From Alphaproteobacteria bacterium (GTDB lineage: Bacteria > Pseudomonadota > Alphaproteobacteria > Rhizobiales > Rhizobiaceae), in NCBI GenBank assembly GCA_018823835.1, contig JAHJHT010000004.1:124001-188000 (forward strand): a DNA stretch of 64,000 nt, written 5' to 3'. Below the pieces are notes generated by a model that did not search any database, was not told where the DNA came from, and saw only the letters and a program-made list of their open reading frames with translations. Below, one piece after another: positions 35,631 to 40,612 of this stretch. A program made the translations under genes and the position numbers. Positions within the stretch are counted from its first letter, which is position 1, and each line of letters opens with the position of its first letter.

Positions 35631-35707
35631 TGGTACGGTTGGGTGGGCTCGAACCACCGACCTCCGGATCCACAATCCGGCGCTCTAACCAACTGAGCTA
35701 CAACCGC
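35631..35707 (-). tRNA. tRNA-His (GTG anticodon)
   Basis: A 77-base tRNA gene with encoded CCA (35631-35633). The acceptor stem is GCGGTTG with CAACCGT, followed by A73. The D-arm is AGCTCAGTTGGTTAGAGC. The anticodon stem CCGGA/TCCGG encloses TTGTGGA, giving anticodon GTG for His. The T-arm contains GGTTCGAGCC. There is no extra 5' G at position -1: the first pair is G1-U72 and the discriminator is A73. This is the unusual form known for alphaproteobacterial tRNA-His, whose histidyl-tRNA synthetase does not need G-1. Confidence 0.97.
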
Positions 35708-35759: not shown

Positions 35760-35857
35760 GCCGGTTCTGCGCGCAAAAACGACGCGGAAGGCCTTGTGCC
35801 TCCATGCCCTTGGCATGCCAGACGGCGGTCAGGCCGCCCACAGACACGCAGGCACAG

Positions 35858-35962
35858 AAAAAGGCCGGCGGGAGGAGGTGCCGGCCTTTTCCTTTTACGA
35901 GCCGGCGGGAGGAGGTGCCGGCTGGTCACCCCGGAAGGAAGCGGGAGGAGGTGCCGCCTTCC
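35858..35962 (-). ncRNA. Triple-hairpin RNA after the phasin gene, cuckoo/CcsR-like
   Basis: Three successive hairpins lie 26 bases after the phasin stop. All three have the same 10-base loop, ACCTCCTCCC on the transcribed (minus) strand. Loops are at 35943-35952, 35907-35916 and 35870-35879, a period of 36-37 bases. Stems: GGAAGG/CCTTCC plus an inner GC pair (35933-35962), AGCCGGC/GCCGGCT (35900-35923), and an 11-bp AAAAGGCCGGC stem with a T run (35858-35890) that is a textbook terminator. The CUCCUCCC loop is the hallmark of alphaproteobacterial cuckoo/CcsR small RNAs. It could be processed from the phasin 3' UTR. The loop also matches the anti-Shine-Dalgarno sequence. Confidence 0.7.
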
Positions 35963-35987
35963 AGGTATCTGCTGTCGCCTTAACTGA

Positions 35988-36452
35988 TCAGGCGACCTTA
36001 AGTTCCTTCATCGCCTTCTCGAAGGCGGTCTTGGCGGGCTTGGAGATTTCCTCGGCAGCCTTGGTGGCGGTCGCCTGGAATTCCTTGGCCTGCTCGACGC
36101 CGCTCTCTACCTGCTTGCGCAGGAACGAGGTCTGTAGCTCGAAGACCTCCGAAAGGGTCTTGGCGCCGACGAGGGCCTCGAGGTGGTTGAAGCCGGCATC
36201 GGCATTGGCGCGCAGTGCGGAAATGGTCTTCATCGACATCTCGTTCGACACGGACTTGGCGGTCTCGAGGGTCGATTCAACCGTCTTCTGGGTCTCTTCG
36301 GCGCCGGACTTCATCTTGGCGTAGGCTTCCTTCGACTGCTCGACGCCCTTTTCTGCAAAAGCGCGGATCTGGTCGGTAGCCTTGGATGCGTCAAAGGTCG
36401 GGAACTCGACGTTTTCCATGAATTCGTTGGTCTTCTCTGCTGTCTTGGCCAT
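35988..36452 (-). CDS. Phasin (polyhydroxybutyrate granule protein)
   Basis: A 154-residue phasin. It is helical and Ala/Lys/Glu-rich with no membrane segment, showing AKTAEKTNEFMENVEFPTFD, the central EQSKEAYAKMKSGAEETQK, and the C-terminal FLRKQVESGVEQAKEFQATA typical of the Phasin_2 group. Phasins coat polyhydroxyalkanoate granules and control their size. AGGACAGGAAA precedes the ATG. It has its own sigma70 promoter with a PhaR-like dyad and a 3' array of CUCCUCCC-loop hairpins. Acetoacetyl-CoA synthetase, another polyhydroxybutyrate-cycle enzyme, lies 7.5 kb away. Confidence 0.93.
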   Translation of the reverse strand: MAKTAEKTNEFMENVEFPTFDASKATDQIRAFAEKGVEQSKEAYAKMKSGAEETQKTVESTLETAKSVSNEMSMKTISALRANADAGFNHLEALVGAKTLSEVFELQTSFLRKQVESGVEQAKEFQATATKAAEEISKPAKTAFEKAMKELKVA

Positions 36453-36510: not shown

Positions 36511-36561
36511 TATATAGACCATGCCATGGTGCATTGCAACATTTTTGTTGCGCTGCACCAT
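36511..36561 (-). promoter_or_regulatory. Phasin promoter with overlapping PhaR-like operator
   Basis: On the minus strand: -35 TTGCAA (36534-36539), exactly 17 bases, and -10 TATATA (36511-36516). A 36-bp imperfect palindrome (36526-36561) covers the -35. Its arms are ATGGTGCA-TT-GCAAC and GTTGC-GC-TGCACCAT. Each arm holds a TGC-N3-GCA element (TGCATTGCA, TGCGCTGCA), the core reported for PhaR repressors that sense polyhydroxybutyrate. Repression until granules form is the expected logic. Confidence 0.7.
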
Positions 36562-36697: not shown

Positions 36698-39600
36698 ATG
36701 CCTTCTGCTTCCTATTCCTTCCTCGATGTCGCTGCCCTTGACGGCGTGCGCGAACGTTTCGCTTCTGGCGACGCGCTGGCCATCCTGTCGAGCGACCTCG
36801 ACGAGGTGATCTGGGCGAACGGTCCGGGCGCAGCCCTGCTCGGCTATGCCGACATCGAGGATGGCATCGGGGCCGCATCGCGGCTCGGCATGGCGACGCG
36901 CCGGCAGATCGCCGCGACGCGCGGCTTCCCGAAAATCGGGCGCGACCGGCCGGTGCAACTGCGCATGACGACGGGCATGACGAGCCGCATGGTCTCATTC
37001 CTCGCCAGCTCGCTGGTGCTGCCCGACGGCGAGGCGGCGATCCTGCTTGCCGCACCGGCGCCGACCGGCGGCGCGCGCAGCGAGCGCGACATTGCCGAAC
37101 GGGCGATCGGCGGTTTTGCCGAAGTCGGCCATTTTGCCGCCTTCCTGGACGCCGACGGCAATGTCGAGGCCGCCTCGGCCGGCTTCGACGCGCTTGGCCT
37201 AGGGCACGACACGCTGGCGGACCTCGTGCGGCAGGCAGCCAGAGAGGCCGATCGCATCGTCAAGCAGATGATTCCCGGCGCCAGCGGCTCCCTGCCGGCC
37301 GGCCTGGCGCGGCTGACCGAAAGGCGCAACCTGCTCGTCGTCATCGACGAGGGCGTCTCCGGGCCCGACACGAGCGAGCCCGCCATGGCGCCTCAGGCTG
37401 AAACTCCCGCTCCGTCAACGACTGCCGGTGAGGCCCCGGCCGAAGCCAAGCTATCAGGCAGCGAGACGCCGTCGCATGACAGCTGGTACTTCAGCGAGGC
37501 CGGCAAGCGGCAGCCGCCGGGCGCCGAAAGGCCTGACAGTGCGGGCATGCCCACTGAAGAGCCGACCGAAATCGCCCCGACGGGCGAAGCCGGCACGCCA
37601 ACGGCAGACCCTGCCTCCTCGGATCTGCCCTTAAACTCAGAGCCCGCCAACACAGTCGAGCCAGAAAACGATATCGCGACGGTGCCGCCGTCTCCTTCCA
37701 CTGCTCGTCCATCATCTGCCACCGGGCCGGTTCGCTTCGTCTGGCGCACCGACGCCGAGGGCAAGTTCAGCCAGATCTCGCCGGAATTCGCGGACGCGGT
37801 AGGCGAGGAAGCCGCCGATATCGTCGGCCGGAGCTTCGACGAGGTAGCCAGGGCCCTGGGTCTCGATCCCAAGGGCGACATTGCCGGCCTGCTGGCGCGG
37901 CGCGACACCTGGTCGGGCCGCAGCGTGATGTGGCCTGTCTCCGGCACCGACCTGCAGGTACCCGTCGATCTCGCTGCCCTGCCGGTCTACGACCGCAACC
38001 GTGCCTTCGAGGGCTTTCGCGGCTTCGGCGTCGCGCGCACCGGCGATGCCACGGTCGATCCGCGGGCGACCGGCCTGGCGCTGACGATGACACCCGCCGA
38101 GGACGTCGCCGCCGCCTCGGGCGCTGCGCAGGAAGAGATCGAGACGGAGCCGCAGGAGGACGTCGCGGCGAGCGACCCTGCCTCCGACAAGCCATCCGAA
38201 CCGCCGGCAGACCCTTTCCGCGGCGAGGTACCGGCGCTCAGCATCGTGCCTGCGCAAGACCGACGCTTCACCGACAAGGTGATCCGGCTGGCCGAGCGCC
38301 GCCCGACGGCCGACAACGACAAGGGCCTTTCTTCCGGCGAGCGCCTCGCCTTCCAGCAGATCGGCGAGCGGCTGAAGAAAGACGGCGCGTCGACGCGTGG
38401 ATCGCCGCCGGCAACGGAAGACTCTCCCGCCGAAACCGACGAGACGACGCAGGCCGTTCAGGCGCCCGGCGCACCGGTCGAGGCCGAGACGCCCGACGCT
38501 CCCGAAGTGCCGGATATCGCAGCGGTAGACCCCGAAGCGGAGCCGACGGGTGATACGGAGGCCGACACAAACGATCTGCGCCGCCTCGACGGCGCGGACG
38601 AGGCTGTGCCTTCCGCCGACGATGAGGGGGAGCCGCTGTCGGCCGGCGCGCCGGCTGCCGGGGAGGATGCGACCGATTCCTCGCCGGCACGGGAAACTAC
38701 GCCCGAGGAGCCGGCAGCCGAGAAGCCCGGCAGGCCCGGAATGTCGCTGCTCGACTTCGCGCAATGGGACGCCCAGCAGGCACCCGACACGGAGGCATCC
38801 GGGCAATCCGCCGAGGCTCCCGACGAGCCGTCGGCCGAAATCCAGGCAGACCAGTCCTCAGAGACGAAGGACGAGGCGCCGCGCGCCGAGAAAGACGACG
38901 AACCGGCGTCGAGGCGGGCGCCCGGCTGGCGCAAGTTCACGCTGGTCGAGATGGAAGAAGCCGCGGGTCTCGATGTTTCGACGCCCGAGCCGGCGCGGAC
39001 GGAAGGGCCCTCCGCGGACGCCGAGCAGCCCTCCGCCAAGGAGGATCCGTCCGGGCCAGCCATCGAAGGGGCACCGGACGAACCCGCCGACAGGCATGGC
39101 AAGGCAGCCGCCGCCGCGCTGGCCGACGTCGCGCCGAAATCCGCAGCCGGCCTGTCGATCCTCGAAAAGCTGCCGGTGCCCGTGCTGGTTCACTCCGGCG
39201 ACACGCTGCACTACGCCAATGACGAGTTCGCCGCGCTGACCGGCTACGGGTCGGTGGAGGAACTCGCGGACGCCGGCGGCATCGGCGTGCTTTTCGCCGA
39301 CAGCTATGAAGACGAGGACGCGCCCGAAAAGGTCGACCGGCAGTTGCGCCTGAAGACGCGCGACGGCGAGGAAATCCCTGTCGAGGCCTTCCTGCAGTCA
39401 GTGCCGTGGAACGGCGGCAAGGCGCTCCTGCTGGTGCTTTCGCGCAGCAAGGAGGGTGGATTCGCCGCCGGCCAGTCACCGCTGATCGCCGAACTCGAGG
39501 CGCGCGTCGCCGAAATGCGCACCATCATCGACACGGCGACCGACGGCGTCGTGCTGATCTCGCCTGATGGCACGATCCGCTCGATCAGCCGCCCCGCCGA

Positions 39601-40612
39601 GGCGCTGTTCGGCTTCGAGAGCGACGAGGTCGTGGGAAAGCATTTCGCCTCGCTGTTTGCCATCGAAAGCCAGCGCGCCGCGCGCGACTATCTTGCCGGC
39701 CTTTCCGAGAACGGCGTGGCGAGCGTGCTCAACGACGGGCGCGAGGTGATCGGGCGCGAAGCGGAAGGCCGCTTCATCCCCTTGTTCATGACCATCGGCA
39801 AGCTGCCGGGCGAAAGTGGCTATTGCGCCGTGGTGCGCGACATCACGCAGTGGAAGCGCGCTGAGGAAGACCTCACCCAGGCGCGCGCGCTTGCCGAACG
39901 GGCATCCTCGCAGAAGACCGACTTCCTCGCCCGCGTCAGCCATGAGATCCGCACGCCGCTCAACGCCATCATCGGTTTTTCCGAGCTGATGATGGACGAG
40001 AAGTTCGGTCCGGTCGCCAACGACCGCTACCGCGACTACCTGCGCGACATCAACCGTTCGGGCAACCACGTGCTCGACCTCGTCAACGACCTGCTCGACA
40101 TTTCCAAGATCGAGGCCGGCCAGCAGGAAATGGCTTACGAGGCGGTATCGCTCAACGACACGCTGTCGGAGACCGTGGCGATGATGCAGCCGCAGGCCAA
40201 CCGCGAGCGCGTCATCATCCGCTCGAGCTTTGCCTCCAGCCTGCCCGACGTGGTGGCCGACTTGCGCAGCGTGCGCCAGATCGCGCTCAACATCCTGTCC
40301 AACGCGGTGCGCTACACGCAGGCCGGCGGCCAGGTGATCGTCTCGACCGCCTATGAGGCGGCGGGCGAAGTCGTCATGCGGGTGCGCGACACCGGCATCG
40401 GAATGTCGTCGTCGGAGATCGAGCAGGCGCTGAAGCCGTTCAAGCAGATCAATTCATTGAAGCGGGCGCGCGGCGACGGCACCGGTCTCGGCCTGCCGCT
40501 GACCAAGGCGATGGTCGAGGCCAATCGGGCGAAATTCACCATCAACTCGACGCCCGGCGAAGGCACGCTGGTCGAAATCAGCTTTCCGCCAACGCGGGTT
40601 CTGGCCGACTGA
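36698..40612 (+). CDS. Long PAS-domain sensor histidine kinase, PdhS-like
   Basis: A 1,304-residue cytoplasmic kinase with no membrane segment or signal peptide. Order: a PAS-like N-terminal module (10-120), a second PAS-like stretch near 345-450, long acidic Pro/Ala/Glu-rich low-complexity parts (230-330 and 460-815), PAS domains at about 820-920 and 940-1060, then HisKA with phospho-His1082 (SHEIRTPLNAI). The HATPase follows with NAVRYTQ, DTGIGMSSSEI and GDGTGLGLPL. The kinase core and FSELMMDEKFGPVANDRYRDY resemble the DivJ/PleC/PdhS family that acts on DivK in alphaproteobacterial cell-cycle control. It is divergent from the phasin gene. The PdhS identity is inference. Confidence 0.85.
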   Translation: MPSASYSFLDVAALDGVRERFASGDALAILSSDLDEVIWANGPGAALLGYADIEDGIGAASRLGMATRRQIAATRGFPKIGRDRPVQLRMTTGMTSRMVSFLASSLVLPDGEAAILLAAPAPTGGARSERDIAERAIGGFAEVGHFAAFLDADGNVEAASAGFDALGLGHDTLADLVRQAAREADRIVKQMIPGASGSLPAGLARLTERRNLLVVIDEGVSGPDTSEPAMAPQAETPAPSTTAGEAPAEAKLSGSETPSHDSWYFSEAGKRQPPGAERPDSAGMPTEEPTEIAPTGEAGTPTADPASSDLPLNSEPANTVEPENDIATVPPSPSTARPSSATGPVRFVWRTDAEGKFSQISPEFADAVGEEAADIVGRSFDEVARALGLDPKGDIAGLLARRDTWSGRSVMWPVSGTDLQVPVDLAALPVYDRNRAFEGFRGFGVARTGDATVDPRATGLALTMTPAEDVAAASGAAQEEIETEPQEDVAASDPASDKPSEPPADPFRGEVPALSIVPAQDRRFTDKVIRLAERRPTADNDKGLSSGERLAFQQIGERLKKDGASTRGSPPATEDSPAETDETTQAVQAPGAPVEAETPDAPEVPDIAAVDPEAEPTGDTEADTNDLRRLDGADEAVPSADDEGEPLSAGAPAAGEDATDSSPARETTPEEPAAEKPGRPGMSLLDFAQWDAQQAPDTEASGQSAEAPDEPSAEIQADQSSETKDEAPRAEKDDEPASRRAPGWRKFTLVEMEEAAGLDVSTPEPARTEGPSADAEQPSAKEDPSGPAIEGAPDEPADRHGKAAAAALADVAPKSAAGLSILEKLPVPVLVHSGDTLHYANDEFAALTGYGSVEELADAGGIGVLFADSYEDEDAPEKVDRQLRLKTRDGEEIPVEAFLQSVPWNGGKALLLVLSRSKEGGFAAGQSPLIAELEARVAEMRTIIDTATDGVVLISPDGTIRSISRPAEALFGFESDEVVGKHFASLFAIESQRAARDYLAGLSENGVASVLNDGREVIGREAEGRFIPLFMTIGKLPGESGYCAVVRDITQWKRAEEDLTQARALAERASSQKTDFLARVSHEIRTPLNAIIGFSELMMDEKFGPVANDRYRDYLRDINRSGNHVLDLVNDLLDISKIEAGQQEMAYEAVSLNDTLSETVAMMQPQANRERVIIRSSFASSLPDVVADLRSVRQIALNILSNAVRYTQAGGQVIVSTAYEAAGEVVMRVRDTGIGMSSSEIEQALKPFKQINSLKRARGDGTGLGLPLTKAMVEANRAKFTINSTPGEGTLVEISFPPTRVLAD

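Follow-up and report, generated by a model that had tools for sequence, protein, structure and literature searches.

What is the element that follows the phasin gene in this alphaproteobacterial contig, and does it have anything to do with carbon storage? We counted CCTCCTCCC exactly three times in the window (the whole 64-kb stretch of DNA that was analyzed), always on the minus strand, when 0.83 occurrences are expected by chance over the whole window according to shuffled sequences (Table 1). Each of three hairpins exposes the loop sequence ACCTCCTCCC, with a loop spacing of 37 and 36 nt, and hairpin 1 begins 22 nt past the phasin stop codon. The predicted RNA fold (minimum free energy of −63.4 kcal/mol, z = −4.9, a stability reached by 0 of 200 shuffles) contains the three hairpins with every 10-nt loop open. 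The third stem, AAAAGGCCGGC/GCCGGCCTTTTT followed by a U-run, has the shape of an intrinsic terminator, and hairpin 3 is, according to this folding model, the intrinsic terminator of the phasin unit. Motif count and RNA fold confirm in this respect the original prediction of three same-loop hairpins behind a phasin gene, the last one being a terminator.

Table 1. Positions of the features discussed in the text, numbered along the window.
Feature	Position	Strand	Remark
αr14 small RNA (RF02344), full-length match	35857..35969	−	cmscan against Rfam
CCTCCTCCC occurrences	35870-35878, 35907-35915, 35943-35951	−	
Hairpin 1	35930..35965	−	Loop ACCUCCUCCC at 35943-35952; RNA fold
Hairpin 2	35897..35926	−	Loop ACCUCCUCCC at 35907-35916; RNA fold
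Hairpin 3 and U-run	35856..35893	−	Third loop at 35870-35879; RNA fold; stem followed by TTTTT
Phasin gene, 154 aa, αr14 host gene	35988..36452	−	TIGR01985, PF09361
tRNA-His, downstream	35634..35707	−	Anticodon GTG by inspection; marks the conserved phasin-[αr14]-tRNA order
Distal PhaR-type box, TGCAGCGCA (YGCRNYGCR)	36549..36557	−	Motif from PMC12542648
Proximal PhaR-type box, TGCAATGCA	36530..36538	−	Overlaps the likely −35
Likely −35 of the phasin promoter, TTGCAA	36534-36539	−	
Likely −10 of the phasin promoter, CTATAT	36512..36517	−	

A search with cmscan placed the locus in αr14 (RF02344), with a score of 68.9 bits over model positions 1–123 and a gathering score, i.e. the curated cut-off, of 58.8 bits. 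The locus is therefore an above-threshold member of this family, whose founder is NfeR1 of Sinorhizobium meliloti and which consists of three hairpins carrying the same ultraconserved CCUCCUCCC anti-Shine-Dalgarno motif on highly different stems (PMC10746234, PMC7143759, PMC8844928). The window copy has these traits: motif count and RNA fold give three hairpins whose CCUCCUCCC motifs are all unpaired, and alignments of relatives reveal hypervariable stems and ultraconserved loops. Only tRNA and ar14 reached a threshold in the Rfam scan of the window, with no match to any cuckoo family or to the MmgR (αr8) family. The family that had been proposed, the two-hairpin cuckoo/CcsR RNAs, came near without being the right one, which is αr14 with its three hairpins. 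The host gene encodes a phasin (TIGR01985, 139.9 bits for a cut-off of 99.7; PF09361, 5e-16) and not the DUF1127 (CcaF1-like) protein that marks the location of CcsR/cuckoo RNAs. A kinship in layout with the CcsR-like RNAs is nonetheless real because other αr14 copies of this genome follow DUF1127 genes. Likewise, three hairpins beside a phasin gene had been taken for an undescribed arrangement; the three hairpins are the norm of αr14, which is defined by them, and it is the phasin host that a literature search of limited reach did not find described. In other words, the RNA family is already known and the phasin 3′-UTR setting is the variant.

The genome contains five well-scoring αr14 copies, including the one behind the phasin gene. 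A tandem pair and a degenerate single copy lie behind DUF1127 genes, and another copy (L004) is without protein host and has an NfeR1-like upstream sequence. DUF1127 genes associated with CcsR-like RNAs correspond to the known CIN1 layout (PMC10253847). Elsewhere, two loci (L198 and L203) carry four tandem αr14 RNAs, i.e. 12 loops, behind a DUF1127 gene. On the other side of the phasin gene of the window, the divergent neighbor (36698-40612, plus strand) codes for a PdhS-like cell-division histidine kinase of 1304 aa, whose score of 1118 bits against NF041593 is below the 2000-bit cut-off.

We then looked at the phasin-αr14 order in 61 relatives, among which 28 genomes of the family have a strong phasin (TIGR01985) hit. 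Eleven of these 28, nearly all from different genera, carry phasin and αr14 head-to-tail on the same strand with 34–57 nt between profile ends, an order expected by chance about once in 7,500 per genome by a rough estimate. A set of 80 phasin loci was retrieved by name; in 37 of them, CTCCTCCC loops begin no more than 99 nt past the stop codon, and nearly all of these 37 are from Mesorhizobium, Chelativorans, Aquibium and Rhizobiaceae (Mesorhizobium/Phyllobacteriaceae side), and RF02344 scored above threshold in 9 of the 16 loci scanned. The phasins of Rhizobium, Shinella and Ensifer are without the three loops; the downstream tRNA is kept where checked, and a plain terminator is found at those 3′ ends that were read. 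On a phasin tree, in which the window copy is represented by a relative with 92% identity (L009), the αr14 trait requires 4 changes versus 24 with shuffled labels. A clade of Mesorhizobium phasins that lacks the RNA seems to be paralogous, since M. camelthorni has both forms (L033 with, L041 without). The prediction that a phasin 3′ UTR yields a regulatory RNA, one with anti-Shine-Dalgarno loops, is supported.

Two further features were observed at these phasin 3′ ends. In L010, L025, L026, L028 and similar long-spacer Mesorhizobium loci, αr14 is preceded, about 15–45 nt past the phasin stop codon, by an additional hairpin whose A[AT]CAAAAGGTC loop is near-constant and whose stem changes; this hairpin is absent from the window. 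Phasins of the Rhizobium/Peteryoungia type (L056, L058-L061, L063, L081) display one AATCCTCCCAAG stretch followed by a plain terminator, which may be what remains of an αr14 that was lost.

The alignment of phasin 3′ regions revealed conserved loops on stems that vary with compensatory changes, some copies having lost loops. That the loop is invariant and the stems differ had been noted for the three hairpins of the window, and it also holds across relatives, with an identity of 1.00 for the loops and of ~0.5, ~0.7 and ~0.85 for stems 1, 2 and 3, respectively. The 8-nt loop core is identical in all 14 phasin-linked copies that have three full loops. In the 14-sequence alignment, 21 of 34 stem pairs have changes on both sides, and 89% of the cells pair compared to at most 61% after sliding of the partner. 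Such two-sided changes affect 10 of the 12 stem pairs of hairpin 1; the core stem of hairpin 2 is 99% paired (at most 46% in control slides) and 5 of its 7 pairs are compensatory, and hairpin 3 has 4 compensatory pairs. These observations weigh against the idea that the hairpins only stabilize or end the phasin mRNA, the loops being an old αr14 leftover devoid of a role in trans: the loops are letter-perfect while the stems fall to ~50% identity with compensatory changes, and a terminator requires neither three hairpins nor that particular loop. We consider this idea improbable, even if the orthologous phasins of Rhizobium, Shinella and Ensifer have a plain terminator upstream of the same tRNA and loop 2 or 3 is lost in some copies from Phyllobacteriaceae. 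In L030, L037, L038, L039 and L048, the loop of hairpin 2 or 3 is lost or shortened and the hairpin itself is kept; the constraint is thus not uniform, with one or two loops missing from L030, L037, L038 and L048.

Could αr14 be an autonomous gene that merely lies behind the phasin gene, comparable to NfeR1 with its location between SMc02051 and tig? NfeR1, the founder, has a sigma70 promoter of its own, as does a portion of the αr14 copies; membership in the family, a matter of sequence and structure, does not depend on such a promoter. The longer spacer of many Mesorhizobium loci (97–99 nt) could hold one. In the window, however, only the 22 nt separating the stop codon from hairpin 1 are available, and the short gap is conserved in the 11 genomes. 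Furthermore, a crude scan found sites scoring at least 9 of 12 promoter-consensus letters in the spacer of 0 of 52 phasin-linked copies, compared to 22% of the αr14 copies without phasin or DUF1127 host and ~4% of shuffles; the score of the phasin-linked copies, window spacer included, is at or below the shuffled level. An autonomous gene is therefore unlikely in our view. Alternatively, a primary transcript might start within the end of the phasin gene, at a promoter that is weak or unusual.

Two PhaR-type boxes located 19 nt apart surround the likely −35 element of the phasin promoter, and at least two YGCRNYGCR boxes are present in 78 of 80 related phasin promoters. A hexamer of the TATA type resembling CTATAT is seen again at this place in the phasin promoters of relatives. 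YGCRNYGCR is the tested site of PhaR (AniA) in S. meliloti, two copies of which flank the phaP1 −35 (PMC12542648), and the genome under study encodes PhaR and a PHB synthase. As judged from sequence, these boxes suggest a PhaR-controlled phasin-αr14 transcript. The proposed link to carbon storage gains plausibility from the position of the RNA, the conservation of this position and the two putative PhaR boxes. The window copy may be poorly expressed given that only one of the six S. meliloti αr14 copies is clearly transcribed (PMC7143759). As a separate observation, 25 of 45 αr14 copies without protein host (e.g. L151, L156, L166, L188, L191) have a PhaR-type YGCRNYGCR box in the 160 nt that precede loop 1, where ~4% are expected in shuffles; which protein binds there is uncertain because the box may overlap an LsrB site (TGCA-N6-GCAT).

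The activity of NfeR1 provides a guide to candidate targets. NfeR1 pairs with the ribosome-binding sites of ntrB and ABC-transporter mRNAs and in this way represses them, its three motifs being redundant (PMC10746234, PMC7143759, PMC8844928). Based on complementarity only, GGGAGGAGG is found 2–9 nt before an ATG at 9 positions of the genome versus 2 for the reversed control. This small list partly consists of spurious ORFs; five sites precede recognizable genes, coding for an MnhE antiporter subunit, an ABC permease, an FGGY sugar kinase, a molybdopterin dehydrogenase subunit and an HD-domain protein. Although NfeR1 of S. meliloti is proven to target ntrB, we found no clear GGAGGAGG site at the likely ntrB start of this genome, and the start of phaC, with a plain AGGAGG, is a weak candidate only. 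Direct pairing of a loop with the ribosome-binding site of the phasin gene itself was rejected (only −5.5 kcal/mol).

The loop also resembles the 3′ tail of 16S rRNA, CCUCCU, and the original prediction had raised the possibility of a sponge or mimic of the 16S anti-Shine-Dalgarno end. One may also think of a sponge that titrates another RNA or protein, in place of an mRNA-pairing RNA. A role as sponge or mimic of the 16S tail is not needed because NfeR1 pairs with the translation-initiation regions of specific mRNAs, which its loops repress, and the predicted pairing is lost in a variant with mutations in all three loops (PMC10746234). A CsrA-type sponge would in addition need GGA loops, which are absent. 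We regard a mimic or sponge as very improbable.

We thus favor as the probable explanation an αr14 RNA derived from the 3′ UTR of a PhaR-controlled phasin transcript, in which hairpin 3 acts as the terminator and the loops repress mRNAs of the GGGAGGAGG type. Its expression, processing and targets we infer as follows. Formation of PHB granules would titrate PhaR and allow transcription of the phasin unit, hairpin 3 would end the phasin-αr14 transcript, and an endonuclease, perhaps RNase E by analogy with the release of CcsR1-4 from the ccaF1 transcript (PMC8625941), would liberate an RNA of ~110–120 nt. The three open CCUCCUCCC loops could then pair redundantly with purine-rich, GGGAGGAGG-like ribosome-binding sites of transport and metabolic mRNAs and block their translation, as for NfeR1, so that carbon storage would be coupled to a cut in the translation of nutrient-uptake genes. 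If the 3′-UTR origin is true, phasin genes would represent a second kind of αr14 host mRNA besides DUF1127 genes, and PhaR would tie an anti-Shine-Dalgarno regulator of uptake genes to carbon storage in Mesorhizobium and relatives, nitrogen-fixing legume symbionts among them. More tentatively, and with considerable doubt, one may imagine a PHB-sensing branch in which titrated PhaR derepresses a phasin mRNA with a dual output, granule protein and anti-Shine-Dalgarno αr14, storage silencing uptake and nitrogen genes and free-standing αr14 genes with PhaR-like boxes belonging to the same circuit.

Among the known systems that come close, NfeR1 (Smr14C2, SmelC397) shares with the window copy three hairpins, identical CCUCCUCCC loops, hypervariable stems, a length of ~115–123 nt and a third hairpin that serves as terminator. 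NfeR1 differs in being free-standing between SMc02051 and tig under its own LsrB/NtrC-controlled promoter, whereas the window copy resides in a phasin 3′ UTR with no evident promoter. CcsR/cuckoo RNAs carry CUCCUCCC loops and two hairpins per RNA. CcsR1-4/cuckoo, encoded behind ccaF1 (DUF1127) at the CIN1 locus, resemble the present case, under the reading favored here, as stem-loop small RNAs liberated from a protein gene's 3′ UTR, and αr14 copies of this genome also follow DUF1127 genes; their host encodes a DUF1127 RNA-binding protein and each RNA has two hairpins, instead of a phasin host and three hairpins. MmgR, which the original prediction had invoked, is likewise a small RNA tied to PHB and phasins, PhaR-regulated and endowed with one anti-Shine-Dalgarno loop. 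It is a parallel and not a homolog because it belongs to αr8 (PMC7143759), a different family, and it is a free-standing gene that acts on phasin levels in trans. Finally, AbcR1 and AbcR2 have one CUCCUCCC loop and share the target SMc03121 with NfeR1, but differ by their architecture, their dependence on Hfq and their organization as tandem free-standing genes.
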